From assembly GCA_022824465.1 (NCBI GenBank), contig JAJDZV010000007.1, positions 1 to 64,000 of the forward strand: a DNA stretch of 64,000 nt, written 5' to 3'. Below the pieces are notes generated by a model that was not told where the DNA came from, searched no databases, and saw only the letters and a program-made list of their open reading frames with translations. Position numbers and translations under genes: made by a program. The stretch is from Anaerolineae bacterium (GTDB lineage: Bacteria; Chloroflexota; Anaerolineae; Aggregatilineales; Phototrophicaceae). This document shows positions 8,214-16,538 of the stretch, piece after piece (the stretch's first letter is position 1; each line of letters opens with the position of its first letter).

Positions 8214-9992
8214 TTGCATTTTATTTGGTCGGAGGCGGTCATGGTTATGGAAGTTATGGACAAGGATACTTACGTTTCGGTCGCCCGATTAGACGAGCTC
8301 AAACGCAAGGGCAGCATCACGGTGCAGCCAAATGGCAAAACGCTCGTCCTTTTTCTGTATGGCGAGCGAGTTTACGCGCTGGACAATCGCTGCCCGCATA
8401 TGGGCTTCCCGCTGGACAAGGGATCGGTCGAAGAGGGGATTCTAAGTTGCCACTGGCACCACGCGCGCTTCGATCTGGCAAGCGGCGGCGCCTTTGACCT
8501 GTGGGCGGACGATATCGAGAGCTTTCCCGTGGACCTGCGCAACGGCGAGATTTACGTCGACTTGAGCGCCAAAGGCAACAGCGTCAAGCATCAAAGCAAT
8601 CGTCTGCGCGATGGCTTGCAGCACAATCTCAGCCTGGTCGTCGCCAAAGCCGTGATTAACCTGCTCAACCAAAATGTAGCGCCGGCTGAGCCCTTCCGCA
8701 TTGGGCTTGGCTTCGGGACACAGTATCGCGGCATGGATTGGGGACGCGGCTTGACGACGCACGGCTGCACAATGAATCTCATTCCCTACCTGGACGATGC
8801 CGACAAACCCTTGGCGCTCTTTCACGGCTTGGCCGATGTCGCCAGCGATACGTCCGGCATGTCGCCGCGCTTCAATCCGCGCCCCTTGCCGAACGACGAG
8901 ACCGCTATACCGACGCTAAAAGCCTGGTTCCGCCAATTCGTGGAAGTGCGCGACGCCCAGGCCGGCGAACGCGCCATCGTGTCCGCATTGCGCGCCGGCG
9001 CCGATGACAAACAGATCGCCGATATGCTCTTTACCGCCGCGACCGACCATCGCTATCTGGACGCCGGTCATACGCTGGACTTCATCAACAAGGCCTTGGA
9101 ATCGGTCGACTTGGCTGGCTGGAAGCATGCTGAGCTGGCATTCACCAGCGTCGTGCCAAATCTGACTGACGCGCGGCGCATGGAGGAATCCAACGCCTGG
9201 CGCAAGCCAATCGACCTGATACCGATTCTGGAAGCGGCCTTCGAGCAGTTGAACGACGCCCTGGCTGCCGGCGCCGACCGCGAATCCAAAGACGATGTCG
9301 AAGGGCTGATGCCCACTCTGCTCGGCGATGATCCGCAGCTGATCGCAGATCTGCTGCTTCAGCTTTTGCGTGATGGCGTCAAGCCGGTGGACCTGGCTGG
9401 CATCGTCGCGTACGCGGCCGCGCGGCGGATTGCGCACTTCCATACCAGCAATGAATTCGGCGACTGGGATACCGCCCTGCATACTTTCACCTTCGCCAAT
9501 GCCGTGCGCCAAGGCTTGCAGCGCGTGGCTTCGGCCGGTTTGATGCGCGGCATATTTGACGCGGCGATGAGCATCTACCTCGATCGCTTCTTGAACTTGC
9601 CGTCAGTCCGGCTGCCGCAGCCGCAACCTGTGGCTGATCCGGACGCGCTGCTGGATGACTTCGAGACCTTGCTCAACTTGCAGCAACAGGTCAATCCAGC
9701 CGGAACCTTGGCGGCGCAATATCTGGCGAGCGGCGGCGCGCCCGAGAAACTAATGGCGAAAATGGGACATCTGTTGCTGCGTGAAGACCGCAACTTCCAT
9801 ACAATTCAATGTATCGAGGCGGCTTTCAACCAGTTCAACATCATCAGAGCCGAGTCCGAGGAACGGGCGAACCATGTACTGGTGGCGGCGGCGCGCTATC
9901 TGGCCGCCCACGCGCCCACAATGCGCTCGCAACTGCAGACATTCACCATCGCGCGGCGGCTCTCCCACGGCGAGAACTTATTCGAAGCCTGA
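8214..9992 (+). CDS. Rieske [2Fe-2S] domain protein with large C-terminal domain
   Basis: 592 aa; NRCPHMGFPLDKG...SCHWHHARFDL Rieske ligands, followed by about 480 aa not assigned. Confidence 0.88.
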   Translation: MHFIWSEAVMVMEVMDKDTYVSVARLDELKRKGSITVQPNGKTLVLFLYGERVYALDNRCPHMGFPLDKGSVEEGILSCHWHHARFDLASGGAFDLWADDIESFPVDLRNGEIYVDLSAKGNSVKHQSNRLRDGLQHNLSLVVAKAVINLLNQNVAPAEPFRIGLGFGTQYRGMDWGRGLTTHGCTMNLIPYLDDADKPLALFHGLADVASDTSGMSPRFNPRPLPNDETAIPTLKAWFRQFVEVRDAQAGERAIVSALRAGADDKQIADMLFTAATDHRYLDAGHTLDFINKALESVDLAGWKHAELAFTSVVPNLTDARRMEESNAWRKPIDLIPILEAAFEQLNDALAAGADRESKDDVEGLMPTLLGDDPQLIADLLLQLLRDGVKPVDLAGIVAYAAARRIAHFHTSNEFGDWDTALHTFTFANAVRQGLQRVASAGLMRGIFDAAMSIYLDRFLNLPSVRLPQPQPVADPDALLDDFETLLNLQQQVNPAGTLAAQYLASGGAPEKLMAKMGHLLLREDRNFHTIQCIEAAFNQFNIIRAESEERANHVLVAAARYLAAHAPTMRSQLQTFTIARRLSHGENLFEA

Positions 9993-10016: not shown

Positions 10017-11021
10017 CTAGCGATTGTAGATGATATAGGTGTCGCGCAATTCCTCGCGCAGTTCAAGATAGTGGCGGTAGCGCCTGGGGACGATTTCGCC
10101 CTGCTCGACGGCGCGGCGGACTGCGCAATCCGGCTCGTCGGTATGGGTGCAATTGCTAAACTTGCAATCCAGCACGTAGCGCTCAATGTCGACGTAGTAG
10201 GCGTCCAGTTCGTCCGGCTCGATATCCCAAACCGTTAGCGAACGTATCCCGGGCGTATCGGCAAGGTAACCGCCGCGGTCCAGGCGAATCAGGGCGCTGT
10301 CGCGCGTGGTGTGGACGCCTTCTCGCGATTGCTGGCCGACTGATTTCACCTGCCGTCCCAAGCCCGGCTGGATGCGGTTGAGCAAGCTGGTCTTGCCGAC
10401 GCCGGAGGGACCGGTGAATACCGATATGCCATCGCACAGCAGCGCTTTCAAGACTTCAAGGCCGTCGCCTCGCAACGCGCTGGCGCGGATGACGGGATAG
10501 CCAAGCGGCTCATAAGCCTTCAAGAGTTCGTCGATATGCGGCGCATAGGGCAGGTCGATCTTGTTGAGCACGATCAAAAGGTCCTGGATCTGCGACTTTT
10601 CGCCCGCCACCAGAAGCCGGTCAAGCAGCTTGAGATTTGGGGCGGGCTGCGCCGCCGAGACGACGAAGAGCGCGCGATCGGCGTTGGCGATGACGACCTG
10701 CTCGCGTTCCGCTTGCCCCGACCCGCGTTTGCCGCTTGTGCGGACCGCGCGCGAAAGCACGCTCTTGCGCGGCGCAAGCTCCTCGATCACGCCCATGAGC
10801 TCATCGACGCCTTCTTCGCGGCGCAAGCTAATCGTGGCGCGATCGCCAATGGCGGCGATATCGGACGACATGGCTTCCTCTTTAAGTCGACCGCGCAACT
10901 CGCACATGACCGTGGCCCGGTCCTCCGCCTCGACCCAATAGAAGCCGCTCTGTTCTCTGACGATCAAGCCTGTATAGCTTTCGTGCAATCCTCTGCCTCC
11001 AGATTGCCTGGTCACTCCCAA
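10017..11021 (-). CDS. rsgA: Ribosome small subunit-dependent GTPase A
   Basis: 334 aa; GPSGVGKTSLLNRI, LNKIDL, DTPGIR circularly permuted G motifs and the C-(N)C-H-EPDC zinc site. Confidence 0.95.
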   Translation of the reverse strand: MGVTRQSGGRGLHESYTGLIVREQSGFYWVEAEDRATVMCELRGRLKEEAMSSDIAAIGDRATISLRREEGVDELMGVIEELAPRKSVLSRAVRTSGKRGSGQAEREQVVIANADRALFVVSAAQPAPNLKLLDRLLVAGEKSQIQDLLIVLNKIDLPYAPHIDELLKAYEPLGYPVIRASALRGDGLEVLKALLCDGISVFTGPSGVGKTSLLNRIQPGLGRQVKSVGQQSREGVHTTRDSALIRLDRGGYLADTPGIRSLTVWDIEPDELDAYYVDIERYVLDCKFSNCTHTDEPDCAVRRAVEQGEIVPRRYRHYLELREELRDTYIIYNR

Positions 11022-11153
11022 TTATAACGACTGACGTGGCGAGGGCGATAGGAAGTCGGCAAATCAGCCGCGCGCCAGTTATCAATGGGCAAGCCCGGTG
11101 ATTTGGAGTAAACTCGGCGGATGAACGTAGTTCAGTATAATTGAGGCAATGAC

Positions 11154-11948
11154 GTGGACGAAGAGACTGGCGCAACAAAGACTACTTATGCGCGCGGCGG
11201 CAGCCACGACTCAGGTGTGATATTGCATTACGTGGCGATCGCCGTGGTATGTTTCGTCATCGGGCTGATCGTCGGCAGATCCGCGCCCGTACCCTCATCC
11301 GAGCAGGCGCCGGTCGCTTTTGATGAGGCGCAGCTCCGCGCGGTCGTAGCCAGCGTCCTCGAAGAACGCGCGCAAGCCGACGCTGCCGAAGGAGGACCCG
11401 ACAGATTTGCCCTGGTCGATGACGACCCCTATTTGGGCGCCGTCGATGCGCCAATCGTCATCGTCGAATTCAGCGACTTCTTCTGCGGCTACTGCAAGCG
11501 GCATTTCGACCAGACTTTCGCGCCACTGCTGGAAAACTACGGCGGGCATATTCGTTATGTCTACCGGGATTTCGCCCGCTTGACGCAAGAATCAACGCCG
11601 GCCGCCGCCGCCGCTCAATGCGCCTTTGAGCAGGGCAAATTCTGGGAGTTCCACGGCGATTTCTTCTCCAATCAGGATTCGCTGGGCGCGGATTTCTATC
11701 TAGCAACCGCCGAAAAACACGCGCTTGATATGACGCGATTTGCCGAATGCCTGGAAGAAGGGCGCTACGTCAACGAGGTCGAGATTGACGGGCTGGATGG
11801 CCAACTGGCTGGCGTGCGCGGAACGCCGGGCTTCTTCATCAACGGCCAGATACTCAGTGGCGCGCAACCCTACAGCATCTTCGAGCGCATGGTGCAGCGC
11901 GAGCTCGACAAAGCTGGCATCGACTGGCGCGCTGAAGCCGCCGGTTAA
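11154..11948 (+). CDS. DsbA-family thioredoxin-fold oxidoreductase, membrane anchored
   Basis: 264 aa, GTG start; one N-terminal TM segment; EFSDFFCGYCKRHF active site; GVRGTPGFFING cis-Pro region. Confidence 0.9.
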   Translation: MDEETGATKTTYARGGSHDSGVILHYVAIAVVCFVIGLIVGRSAPVPSSEQAPVAFDEAQLRAVVASVLEERAQADAAEGGPDRFALVDDDPYLGAVDAPIVIVEFSDFFCGYCKRHFDQTFAPLLENYGGHIRYVYRDFARLTQESTPAAAAAQCAFEQGKFWEFHGDFFSNQDSLGADFYLATAEKHALDMTRFAECLEEGRYVNEVEIDGLDGQLAGVRGTPGFFINGQILSGAQPYSIFERMVQRELDKAGIDWRAEAAG

Positions 11949-12055
11949 TGCCGGACAACTGCGAGCTTCACAAGGTCCCTCAATTGCGCGGGACTATGAC
12001 TCGACGTCGCGCGGCACAGCTATGCGGACTGTGACGAACGATCAGACAGCGAAAA

Positions 12056-13375
12056 ATGACCAAGCGCGGAAAGCGACAATCACGCGACAAGCGCAATACG
12101 CAGGCGCAGAGCCGCGGCGATGTCATCGACCTGGAAATTAGCGAATTGGCGCATGGCGGGCGCGGGCTCGGCTGGCATCATGGCAAGCCGGTCTTCGTGC
12201 CCTATACGCTTCCCGGTGAAGCGATTACCGCCGAAATTACCGGCGGGCGCAAGAATGTGACCTTCGCGCGCGGCTTGCGACTCACGACGGCTTCCGGCGA
12301 CCGCGTCGTGCCAAGCTGCCCTCACTTCGGTCCGGGGCAATGCTGGGGTTGCCAGTGGCAGCATATTGACTACCCCGCCCAACTGCTGCTGAAACAAGAC
12401 ATCGTTGCCGACCAGCTTTCTCGCCAGGGCAAGCTGCCCGATAAGCTCATTGATTCCGCCCTGAGGTCCCCGCTGCCGGCGACATCCCTCTGGCAATACA
12501 ATCACACGCTCAGCTTGCTGCGCGATGAGTCCGGTTCCTGGGGCTTGCGGCGTGATGGCGGCGGCATCCAGGCGATCGGCGAATGCCACATTGCTCACCC
12601 AGCGCTGCTTGACCTTCTGGCGCGAATCGACTTCGATTATCACTTTGCCCGCCGCCTGACCTTGCGGCGCGGTACCGACGGGCGCTTGATGCTGATCCTC
12701 GAAGTCAAAGCCGAAAAAGCGCCGGAACTGCGCGCCGATATTCCGCTAAGCGTCAATTTGATCTTGCCCGACCGCGAGCCAGTCAATCTCATCGGCGACG
12801 CGCATAGCCATTTCGACGTTGCCGGACGACGCTTCCGCGTGACCGCCGGCGCGTACATTCGACCAAGCGTCGACGGAATCGAACGGCTGGTCGCCGAAGT
12901 CCAACGGGCGCTGCAATTGCCAGGCGGAGGCAGAGCCCTCGACCTCTATGCGGGCGTCGGCGTCTACAGCGCCATTATCGCCGCCGGCGCCGAGCTTGTA
13001 ACCCTCGTAGAGAGCTATCCGCCCGCGGCCAACGACGCCGATTCGAATCTCAAAGACTTCGACAACATCGATGTGATCGAAGGCGCGGTCGAGACGGTAC
13101 TCGCCGAGCTCGCGGACGCCGACGCGCGCTACGATGCCGCCGTCGTCGATCCGCCGCCGGCCGGCGTAAGTCGGGATGTGATTGACGGACTCGCTCGGCT
13201 GGAGGTAGAGCGGCTGGTTTACGTCAGTGGCGATCCCGCTTCTCTGGCGCGCGACTGCCAGCCCTTGCTCTCGGCAGGTTATCATTTGCGCGCGGTTCAG
13301 CCGATTGATACCGCGCCGCATACTTTCTATATCACTTGCGTCGCGCGTTTCGAGCGTCAGCCGATGAGCGCCTGA
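12056..13375 (+). CDS. Class I SAM-dependent RNA methyltransferase, TrmA/RlmD family (degenerate catalytic motifs)
   Basis: 439 aa; TRAM-like N-terminus, C-x7-CWGC cluster, ALDLYAGVGVYS SAM motif, VVDPPPAG and YVSGDPASLARD. Confidence 0.88.
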   Translation: MTKRGKRQSRDKRNTQAQSRGDVIDLEISELAHGGRGLGWHHGKPVFVPYTLPGEAITAEITGGRKNVTFARGLRLTTASGDRVVPSCPHFGPGQCWGCQWQHIDYPAQLLLKQDIVADQLSRQGKLPDKLIDSALRSPLPATSLWQYNHTLSLLRDESGSWGLRRDGGGIQAIGECHIAHPALLDLLARIDFDYHFARRLTLRRGTDGRLMLILEVKAEKAPELRADIPLSVNLILPDREPVNLIGDAHSHFDVAGRRFRVTAGAYIRPSVDGIERLVAEVQRALQLPGGGRALDLYAGVGVYSAIIAAGAELVTLVESYPPAANDADSNLKDFDNIDVIEGAVETVLAELADADARYDAAVVDPPPAGVSRDVIDGLARLEVERLVYVSGDPASLARDCQPLLSAGYHLRAVQPIDTAPHTFYITCVARFERQPMSA

Positions 13376-14478
13376 AGCGCCTCAATCAGCCGGTCTATAT
13401 CGTCCGGCGAGTTGTAGGCTTGCACCGAAACCCGTACCGCGCAAATGCCCTTGTATTTTCCCAGCGGCACTTCTATGCGATACTCGTCGTAGAGACGCGT
13501 CTTGACTGCCGACGCGTCGCAATCAGGCAGCAAGATCGTCACCATCTGCGCGAACTGATCGCGCGACAGGGGCGGTAGTCCGTACAGACCGCAGAGCCGC
13601 GATTGCGCCTCGGCCGCCAGTCGATGACATCGAGCGCGAACCTGATCCCAATTGTTTTGGCGCTGGTAGTCTATGGCGGTCGGAACCGTCAGATAGGGCG
13701 CGATATCCCGCGTGCCGTCCCATTCGTTGCGCTCGACGAAGCCGCTGCCATCAAGCCAGCCATGCGATATCACCAGCGGCTCGATCAGCCCGTGATGCTC
13801 CGCGCGGACATGCAGAAAACCGGATCCCTTGGGCGCGCAAAGCCACTTATGGAAGTTGCCGCTGTACATATCAGCGTCGATAGCCGCCAGATCGAGGGGC
13901 AATTGCCCGGGCGCATGGGCGCCGTCGATGATCGTCACGATGCCAAGCTCGCGCGCGCGGCGGCAGATTCCGGCGACCGGGAAGATCAACGCGCTTGGCG
14001 ATGTGATGTGGCTGATGACGATGACTTTCGTCCGCTCGCTGGCGTCAGCGAAAAACGCGTCGATGAAAGCCTCATCCGAAGTATAAGGCAACTGCGCCTC
14101 GTGCTTGATGACGCGCGCGCCGGTCTTCATCGCCACGAATTCAAGCAGTCGGTTCACGGCGCCGTATTCGTGCGTGCTGGTCAGGATTTCGTCGCCGGCG
14201 TCCAGGTGAAGAGAGCGCAGCGCCAGATTCACGCCTGTGGTGGCGTTGGTGACGAATACGATATCGTCGGCGCAAACATTGAGGTACTCGGCGACACGAG
14301 CGCGCGCGTCCGCCATGAGCGCGGGCCGCTTCCGCAACAGAAACTCGATCGGCTGCCGTTCAAGCGCCAATTGCCAGGCTTGATATCGCTCGAAGACCGG
14401 CCGCGGGCAAGCGCCGAAAGAACCGTGGTTGAGAAATATGATGTCATCACGGATGAGAAAATCTGCGCGCGTCGGCAT
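13357..14478 (-). CDS. Aminotransferase class V family protein (isopenicillin-N epimerase-like)
   Basis: 373 aa; LNHGSFGACP, TNATTGVNLALRSL, IDGAHAPGQLPLDL, YSGNFHKWLCAPKGSGFL (PLP lysine). Confidence 0.92.
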   Translation of the reverse strand: MPTRADFLIRDDIIFLNHGSFGACPRPVFERYQAWQLALERQPIEFLLRKRPALMADARARVAEYLNVCADDIVFVTNATTGVNLALRSLHLDAGDEILTSTHEYGAVNRLLEFVAMKTGARVIKHEAQLPYTSDEAFIDAFFADASERTKVIVISHITSPSALIFPVAGICRRARELGIVTIIDGAHAPGQLPLDLAAIDADMYSGNFHKWLCAPKGSGFLHVRAEHHGLIEPLVISHGWLDGSGFVERNEWDGTRDIAPYLTVPTAIDYQRQNNWDQVRARCHRLAAEAQSRLCGLYGLPPLSRDQFAQMVTILLPDCDASAVKTRLYDEYRIEVPLGKYKGICAVRVSVQAYNSPDDIDRLIEALQALIG

Positions 14479-14589
14479 GGCGACCGGTCTTTGGGCTAGA
14501 GATTGGCAATCCGCGCCATTCTAGCGCAGATCCGCTGGCAGCGCCCGATCCCGATCAACTAGATTGGTCACTTCGGATTCGCCGAGCGC

Positions 14590-15471
14590 TCAGCATTGCG
14601 AATCTAGCGAAAAGCGGACGATGCGGTCGAGGCTCGCGTAATCTTGCAAGACGATCGCTTCCAACTGCAGTCTTTCAGCGACGAGCCGCTTGACCGCATC
14701 CCCCTGGTTCGCGCCGATCTCAAGCAAGACATCAGCCCTCGGCGCGCATACAAATTGCAACTGCTCCAACAGCCGGCGGATAAGCGCCAAGCCGTCGGCG
14801 CCGCCATCAAGCGCCAGCCGCGGTTCCCAGTCGCTGACCGCCAGCCCAGGCAAATCATCCGTGGCGATATAGGGCAAGTTCGCCATGAGCAGGTCCAGCT
14901 TGACGCCGCGTTCGATCAAGGGCTGCGCCAGGTCTCCCCGGCTGAAGGCGATATCGGCTCCATGGCGCTTGGCATTGCGGCGCGCCACGTTTAATGCCGC
15001 TTCACTGATGTCGGTGGCGCAGACCTTGCTCCGCGGTCGCTGGCGCGCCAAAGCGATGGCGAGCGCTCCGCTGCCCGTGCCGATATCGGCGACGGCTTTC
15101 GCCTGCCTTGGCTCAACAAGCCGCAGCGCCTCTTCCAGCAGCAGTTCGGTCTCCGGGCGCGGGATAAGCACCGATGGCGTGACCTGAAGCGCAATATCGT
15201 AGAAGCCTCTTTCGCCGAGGATATACGCGACGGGTTCACCAGCGGCGCGGCGCGCAAGCATCGAATCGAACGCGCGCAGCTCCTTCGCCTGTAATTCGTA
15301 TTCGCCATGGGCATATAGAAAAGCCCGCTCCGCCTTTAGCGCCTGTGCCAGCAGCGCTTGCGCGTCGAGATCGGCCGACGCCGACGGCATTAACCTGGAG
15401 CGCGCCCGACGCAGTACTGCGCCGACGGTGGCAGCTTCTTGCCTCGCGGCAGCATCAATGGCGACAGTCAC
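14590..15471 (-). CDS. prmC: Peptide chain release factor N5-glutamine methyltransferase
   Basis: 293 aa; GERGFYDIALQVTPSVLIPRPETELLLEEAL, ADIGTGSGALAIALA, ANLPY; immediately follows prfA. Confidence 0.94.
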   Translation of the reverse strand: MTVAIDAAARQEAATVGAVLRRARSRLMPSASADLDAQALLAQALKAERAFLYAHGEYELQAKELRAFDSMLARRAAGEPVAYILGERGFYDIALQVTPSVLIPRPETELLLEEALRLVEPRQAKAVADIGTGSGALAIALARQRPRSKVCATDISEAALNVARRNAKRHGADIAFSRGDLAQPLIERGVKLDLLMANLPYIATDDLPGLAVSDWEPRLALDGGADGLALIRRLLEQLQFVCAPRADVLLEIGANQGDAVKRLVAERLQLEAIVLQDYASLDRIVRFSLDSQC

Positions 15472-16538
15472 GCCACCCCGCCAACCGCGAGTTGCTCCGC
15501 CTGCTCCTGGGTCGCCAGCTGATCGATAAAGTTATCGAGTTCGCCGTCCATGACCGCCGGCAGATTGAAGCTGCTGTAGCCGATGCGATGATCAGTGACG
15601 CGACCTTGCGGATAGTTATAGGTGCGGATTTTCTCGCTGCGGTCGCCACTGCCGACCTGACCGCGACGCTCGGCATCCCGTTCGGAACGCTGTCGCTCGA
15701 CTTCCGCCTCATACAGACGCGCAATCAAGACCTGCTTGGCGCGCATCTTGTTTTGCAATTGGCTGCGCTCGTCCTGCATCTCGACGACCAAGCCGCTGGG
15801 TTTGTGAATGAGACGCACCGCCGAATCCGTTGTATTTACCGATTGCCCGCCTGCGCCTCGAGAGCGAAAGACCTGAGTCTCGACATCGCTCATATTCAGT
15901 TGCACATCGACTTCGTCCATCTCAGCCAAGACCGCAACCGTCGCCGTGCTGGTATGAATGCGCCCCTGGCTCTCGGTCGTCGGCACTCGCTGAACCCGAT
16001 GCACGCCGCTTTCGTACTTCAAGCGGCTGAATGCGCCATCGCCCTTGATCTCAAAAGTGACGTTCTTGAACACGCTGTTGCCCTGCTCATGGACATCCAA
16101 CAGTTGGACTTTCCAGCGCTTCGATTCGGCATAGCGCATATACAGCCGCATAAGATCGCCGGCGAATATGCCCGCTTCATCGCCGCCGGCGCCAGCCCTT
16201 ATCTCCACGATCACATTCTTGCTGTCTCGCGGATCCTTGGGCAAGAGCAGCAAGCGCAGCGACTCCAGCAGTTCAGCGGCGCTCGCCTCGAGTTGCGCCG
16301 CTTCTTCCTGCGCCATCTCACGCATGTCGGCATCATCAACATTGGCGAGTTCGCGCGCCTCCTCAAGCTCCTGCGACTGCTTTTGATACAGACGATATGC
16401 GTCCACAATCGCTTGCAAGCTGGCGCGTTCCTTCGCCAAGTCCGCCACTCTCTCGAAGTCGGCGGCGATGGCGGGGTCGCCCATCATAGCTTCCAGTTCA
16501 TTGTAGCGGCTTTCAACTTCCGCCAGTTTTTCCAGCAT
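15468..16538 (-). CDS. prfA: Peptide chain release factor 1
   Basis: 356 aa; [22 protein letters not shown]-like, [25 protein letters not shown] (GGQ). Confidence 0.97.
   Translation of the reverse strand: [356 protein letters not shown]

Follow-up and report, generated by a model that had tools for sequence, protein, structure and literature searches.

The window, by which I mean the whole 64,000-nt stretch of Anaerolineae DNA analysed, contains a gene for a protein related to RlmD, the 23S rRNA m5U1939 methyltransferase. Its surroundings (10017-16538) consist, in order, of rsgA (-), a dsbA-like gene (+), the RlmD-family gene itself (+), a class-V aminotransferase gene (-), prmC (-) and prfA (-). 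Further upstream (8214-9992) lies a 592-aa ORF in which an N-terminal Rieske [2Fe-2S] domain is fused to a long region free of Pfam domains. The order of genes around the RlmD-family gene is conserved in most of the window's genus and not outside it, and I therefore discarded the rsgA/dsbA/aminotransferase/prmC neighbourhood, confined as it is to that genus, as a source of a stable operon partner that might give a clue to function.

The features of the gene are given below. Residue equivalences were read off against E. coli RlmD (sequence from NC_000913) by alignment, and the counts refer to 93 aligned inactive copies, from 27 genera of the sister families f1 and f8, and to a canonical comparison set of 23.

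12056..13375, + strand: RlmD-family ORF (P0001), a putative pseudoenzyme of 439 aa with an ATG start (TIGR00479, PDB 1uwv, AlphaFold2, Foldseek)
12113..12271, + strand: TRAM RNA-binding domain, residues 20-72 (PF01938, E 1.7e-7)
12317..12352, + strand: Fe-S cysteines C88, C96 and C99 (RlmD C81, C87 and C90), in 93/93, 93/93 and 92/93 inactive copies by alignment
12584..12586, + strand: fourth Fe-S cysteine, C177 (RlmD C162), in 93/93 inactive copies
12806..13357, + strand: Rossmann methyltransferase domain, residues 251-434 (secondary structure of the model, Foldseek)
12860..12862, + strand: Arg269 where RlmD has Gln265, which contacts the uracil; new to the inactive clade and fixed there (Arg in 91/93 inactive, Gln in 22/23 canonical copies)
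12938..12970, + strand: SAM motif I, LDLYAGVGVYS, residues 295-305, kept (D296, Y298, G300 and G302 near-invariant)
13148..13165, + strand: DPPPAG for DPPRxG, residues 365-370, with Asp365 kept and Pro368 at the position of Arg366 (alignment)
13226..13237, + strand: SGDP for SC(N/D)P, residues 391-394, with Gly392 at the position of the nucleophile Cys389 (Cys in 0/93 inactive, 23/23 canonical copies)
13319..13336, + strand: HTFYIT for HTxHxE, residues 422-427, with Thr427 at the position of the base Glu424 and Tyr425 at that of His422 (alignment)

An RlmD homologue and its catalytic positions

The protein is by descent a full-length homologue of RlmD (TIGR00479, COG2265). In a profile search it scores 203.7 bits on TIGR00479, above the curated cut-off of 183.55, as against 24.5 bits on the profile trmA_only, and its closest solved relative is RumA (PDB 1uwv, 5.4e-34). 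The AlphaFold2 model has a mean pLDDT of 94.2 and aligns over its full length in Foldseek to RlmCD and RumA (TMq 0.79-0.86), both of which rank before TrmA. The TRAM domain, the four-cysteine Fe-S motif and the Rossmann domain are all present in the RumA fold, the cluster itself being predicted. Both fold signatures named in a preliminary description of this DNA are there, C-x7-CWGC at C88/C96/C99 (within CPHFGPGQCWGC) and LDLYAGVGVYS at residues 295-305.

These results bear on the idea that the protein is a chaperone of tRNA rather than rRNA, a role with precedent in the family, since E. coli TrmA has been shown to act in this way and both yeast Trm2 and bovine TRMT2B have been proposed to do so. 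The protein is nonetheless RlmD-type by profile, by fold and by its Fe-S domain, and the m5U54 of tRNA is accounted for by a separate TrmFO, which the same genome carries (611 bits). A tRNA target is therefore rather improbable.

The preliminary description had also read SGDP for SCNP, DPPPAG for DPPRxG and HTFYIT for HTxHxE, and the alignment bears out all three, including the exact place of the first, where Gly392 is encoded by GGC at 13229-13231. Thr427 is encoded by ACT at 13334-13336, and across the window's genus the base position is occupied by T, D or S. Two changes may be added to that list from the alignment with E. coli RlmD, Arg269 and a Tyr (Tyr267) at the position of Phe263. A cysteine conserved at the equivalent position in relatives, for which that description had suggested looking, occurs in none of the 93, and no substitute emerges elsewhere in the alignment: apart from the four Fe-S cysteines, no Cys reaches a conservation above 30% among the inactive relatives. 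A Cys codon is likewise missing at this place from the independent assemblies of every other genome in the genus, so the base-call error at 13229-13231 that had been entertained is not the explanation. Since nucleophile and base are both lost, formation of m5U should be abolished, and inactivity in this sense is well supported.

Distribution, descent and copy number

An RlmD-type match is found in 147 of the 154 genomes of the order. All 34 genomes of the window's genus have one full-length copy from which the Cys is absent, its codon being mostly GGN or AGC where canonical copies have TGC or TGT. Within the aligned f1 and f8 copies, the Glu at the base position is kept in six of 93, and the SAM core is near-invariant at D296, Y298, G300, G302 and D365, E319 (E or D) being its loosest member. 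A search of the phylum with a strict threshold found no members of this inactive clade outside the order.

Families f2-f7 are canonical in the members sampled, apart from one exception each in f3 (L129, from G044) and f4 (L030, from G040). These two Cys-less proteins, with SADP and SSDP respectively, sit within otherwise canonical families and are possibly recent further independent losses, or else sequencing or assembly problems.

The inactive copies of f1 and f8 form a single clade (SH-aLRT 99, in a quick tree without bootstrap rooted on other Anaerolineae families). By targeted tblastn, the locus GT2 (-), RLMD (+), suhB (+) is common to f4, where the gene is canonical, and f8, where it is inactive; in several f1 genera, too, suhB (+) comes next after RLMD (+). 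The window's own genus does not keep this neighbourhood. Because the inactive gene occupies the locus that canonical RlmD occupies elsewhere, it is a positional orthologue and not a stray paralogue. I think it probable that the pseudoenzyme arose from the RlmD orthologue in the ancestor of these two families of Chloroflexota (Anaerolineae) and was retained for the binding of RNA.

The preliminary description had asked whether a canonical paralogue exists beside the inactive gene. None was found in the window's own genome (87% complete), where a search for a second RlmD/TrmA-type gene gave only weak partial methyltransferase matches, and a canonical copy is absent from the assemblies of the genus that were searched. 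Eight further near-complete f1 genomes, none of them with a known second copy, have one RlmD/TrmA-type gene each; they include the single-contig G124, in which that gene is the inactive one. In two genomes chosen for having two copies, the search recovered both. Genus g8 (f8) and the f1 genus g16 (at least four genomes) do carry extra canonical copies, which lie at other loci and group with f7. These second copies (L045, L046, L113-L116 and L122-L124) may be either an old duplicate or the result of horizontal transfer.

In canonical families as in inactive ones, the gene after rlmD encodes a SuhB-like inositol monophosphatase (L037, L117-L121, L127 and neighbours). In E. coli, SuhB has a role in rRNA transcription and ribosome biogenesis.

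Loss of the catalytic residues has also taken place in family f40. Canonical motifs are present in 38 of 40 other genomes from the class, and both exceptions belong to f40. Further genomes of that family lack the Cys wherever the C-terminal half is readable and keep the four Fe-S cysteines; DPPR is mostly altered, often to NPP, and one member (L194) has lost SAM motif I. The inactive copies in f40 are L160, L184, L194 and L203-L212, and f57, the sister of f40, is canonical. A common origin of the two inactive clades was rejected (AU p = 1.6e-4, the group tested having been named after seeing a first tree). The inactivation in f40 is thus independent of that in f1 and f8, and it is family-wide.

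What goes beyond the preliminary description, then, is that the trait extends through a clade, that the protein is the positional orthologue of RlmD and that the loss has been repeated. A search of open-access papers turned up no account of RlmD pseudoenzymes forming a clade in bacteria. As the inactive copies exceed the curated cut-off of the RlmD equivalog, these relatives are probably mis-annotated as RlmD, and predictions of m5U1939 in their genomes are probably wrong.

Constraint on the gene and its proposed role

The inactive gene is under purifying selection. Pairwise dN/dS within the window's genus is 0.13-0.28, and the methyltransferase domain, with 61% identity across the genus, is not decaying. 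In genus g8, from which five genomes were compared, dN/dS is 0.027-0.052 for the inactive copy and 0.063-0.100 for the canonical copy in the same genome pairs, and it is lower for the inactive copy in 6/6 of these (non-independent) pairs, a contrast to which unusual selection on the canonical copy, if that copy was relocated or transferred, may contribute. The central Fe-S domain in g8 diverges in amino acid sequence by 6.9% in the inactive and 15.7% in the active copy. Across genera, the ratio of methyltransferase to Fe-S domain divergence is 0.75 (0.64-0.86) for canonical copies and 1.02 (0.90-1.17) for inactive ones, so that the Fe-S/RNA-binding domain has gained in relative constraint at the expense of the methyltransferase domain. 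Decay or drift of the gene, or an error of sequencing or assembly, might have been supposed from the missing active-site residues, but it is hardly credible in the face of ORFs that are full-length across the clade, dN/dS well below 1, agreement among the 34 genomes of the genus and invariant Fe-S cysteines.

The preliminary description had left two readings side by side, a dead RNA binder and an enzyme with changed chemistry. The latter would methylate another atom or base (e.g. N, O or 2'-O) from SAM with no Cys nucleophile, Arg269 serving as a new active-site residue, and it can draw on the near-invariance of the SAM core (with E319 kept as E or D), on the fixation of Arg at the Gln265 position and on Asp115, newly invariant in the inactive clade. 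The positions around the target base, however, have not been fixed anew: the Cys position holds S, G, A, D, Q, L, E or P and the Glu position D, T, Q, S, H or E, while those of His422 and Phe263 are highly variable (entropy percentiles 61-91). Moreover, DPP or motif I is weakened in several lineages of the inactive clade, and the parallel f40 clade shows no fixation of the Arg and has in L194 a member devoid of motif I. The loss of m5U chemistry is thus strongly supported, and of the two readings the dead RNA binder fits better, given the lost positions that were not fixed again, the shift in constraint and the decay of motif I in f40 with the Fe-S cysteines kept; changed chemistry I consider quite improbable.

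Selection preserves the protein together with its Fe-S cysteines and RNA-binding parts, which suggests a task distinct from methylation, that of holding or folding RNA. In the family, two genomes of the window's genus among them, the sequence around U1939 in 23S rRNA is intact; the site was checked in relatives because 23S rRNA is not detectable in the window's own MAG. Considering this context together with the retained TRAM domain, Fe-S cysteines and fold, I favour the reading that the protein is a pseudoenzyme that binds RNA in 50S assembly. I believe, with some confidence, that it derives from RlmD and has kept the ability to bind 23S rRNA, serving as an assembly factor or chaperone without making m5U1939. 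Both the chaperone role and the RNA target are inferred, the target from orthology. The pseudoenzyme would bind the RlmD site, in domain IV of 23S rRNA around U1939, through its TRAM and central Fe-S domains; it would do so during assembly of the 50S subunit, acting as an rRNA chaperone or an assembly checkpoint with no transfer of a methyl group. The SAM pocket may have been kept as a structural element or as a sensor of its ligand, and Arg269 may fill or close the uracil pocket.

Some observations count against this explanation. The methyltransferase domain persists and most of the SAM core is near-invariant, neither of which should be required of a protein that served only as an RNA chaperone, and the fixed Arg269 hints at a role in the active site. 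The retained SAM core and Fe-S cysteines and the fixed Arg269 are the grounds for supposing a new activity, either another kind of 23S rRNA modification or a SAM- or redox-gated switch in ribosome assembly, which I regard as unlikely. A further reading makes the protein a sensor or regulator, in which occupancy by SAM or the redox state of the Fe-S cluster gates binding to nascent 23S rRNA, so that assembly of the 50S subunit would follow methionine or redox status. Both cofactor sites are indeed conserved with the chemistry lost, and a DsbA-like thioredoxin gene adjoins in the window's genus; that neighbour is genus-specific, however, and this reading seems decidedly improbable.

The assembly-factor reading touches on a long-standing question: are rRNA-modifying enzymes retained because of the modification they make, or because they act as chaperones while ribosomes are assembled? 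With the methylation residues lost at least twice at the scale of families while the protein was kept, and with g8 holding both kinds of copy, evolution has separated the two roles, which makes the question open to gene swaps and deletions.

Comparison with known systems

E. coli RlmD/RumA (PDB 1uwv, 2bh2) shares with the window protein the TRAM, central Fe-S and Rossmann domains, the four Fe-S cysteines and the SAM core, with a TM-score to the model of 0.79-0.81 (query-normalised), and canonical RlmD is found at the same locus in sister families; what the window protein lacks are equivalents of Cys389, Glu424, Gln265, Arg366, His422 and Phe263. The best fold match is RlmCD of S. pneumoniae (PDB 5xj1, 5zq0; TMq 0.86), which differs in being active, on both U747 and U1939. 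Its general base is E443 (PMC5614603, PMC6235398), and its Q283A and D381A variants retain about 50% and 4% of activity on U1939, and 8% and 2% on U747, with RNA binding not severely impaired in either (PMC6235398).

Pseudoenzymes in families of uracil methyltransferases are already known singly. The mitochondrial TRMT2B of cattle and rat is an m5U-family protein that has lost the nucleophilic Cys and conserved the remainder, and in Bovinae, where Cys is replaced by Tyr, it has been proposed to be purely a chaperone (PMC7237155). It differs in being a TrmA-type, eukaryotic protein, and the published change concerns the Cys in a few mammals, whereas the clade of the window protein has lost the whole set of residues across bacterial families. 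TrmFO-like proteins of mycoplasmas (e.g. MCAP_0613) are likewise homologues of a uracil-C5 methyltransferase in which the catalytic Cys is replaced and the cofactor sites are kept, with function unknown (PMC7226160), but they have an unrelated folate/FAD fold. E. coli TrmA, of the same superfamily, offers the non-catalytic role in RNA folding, as a tRNA chaperone (reviewed in PMC11301382), but, unlike the protein proposed here, it has catalytic activity and its target is tRNA.
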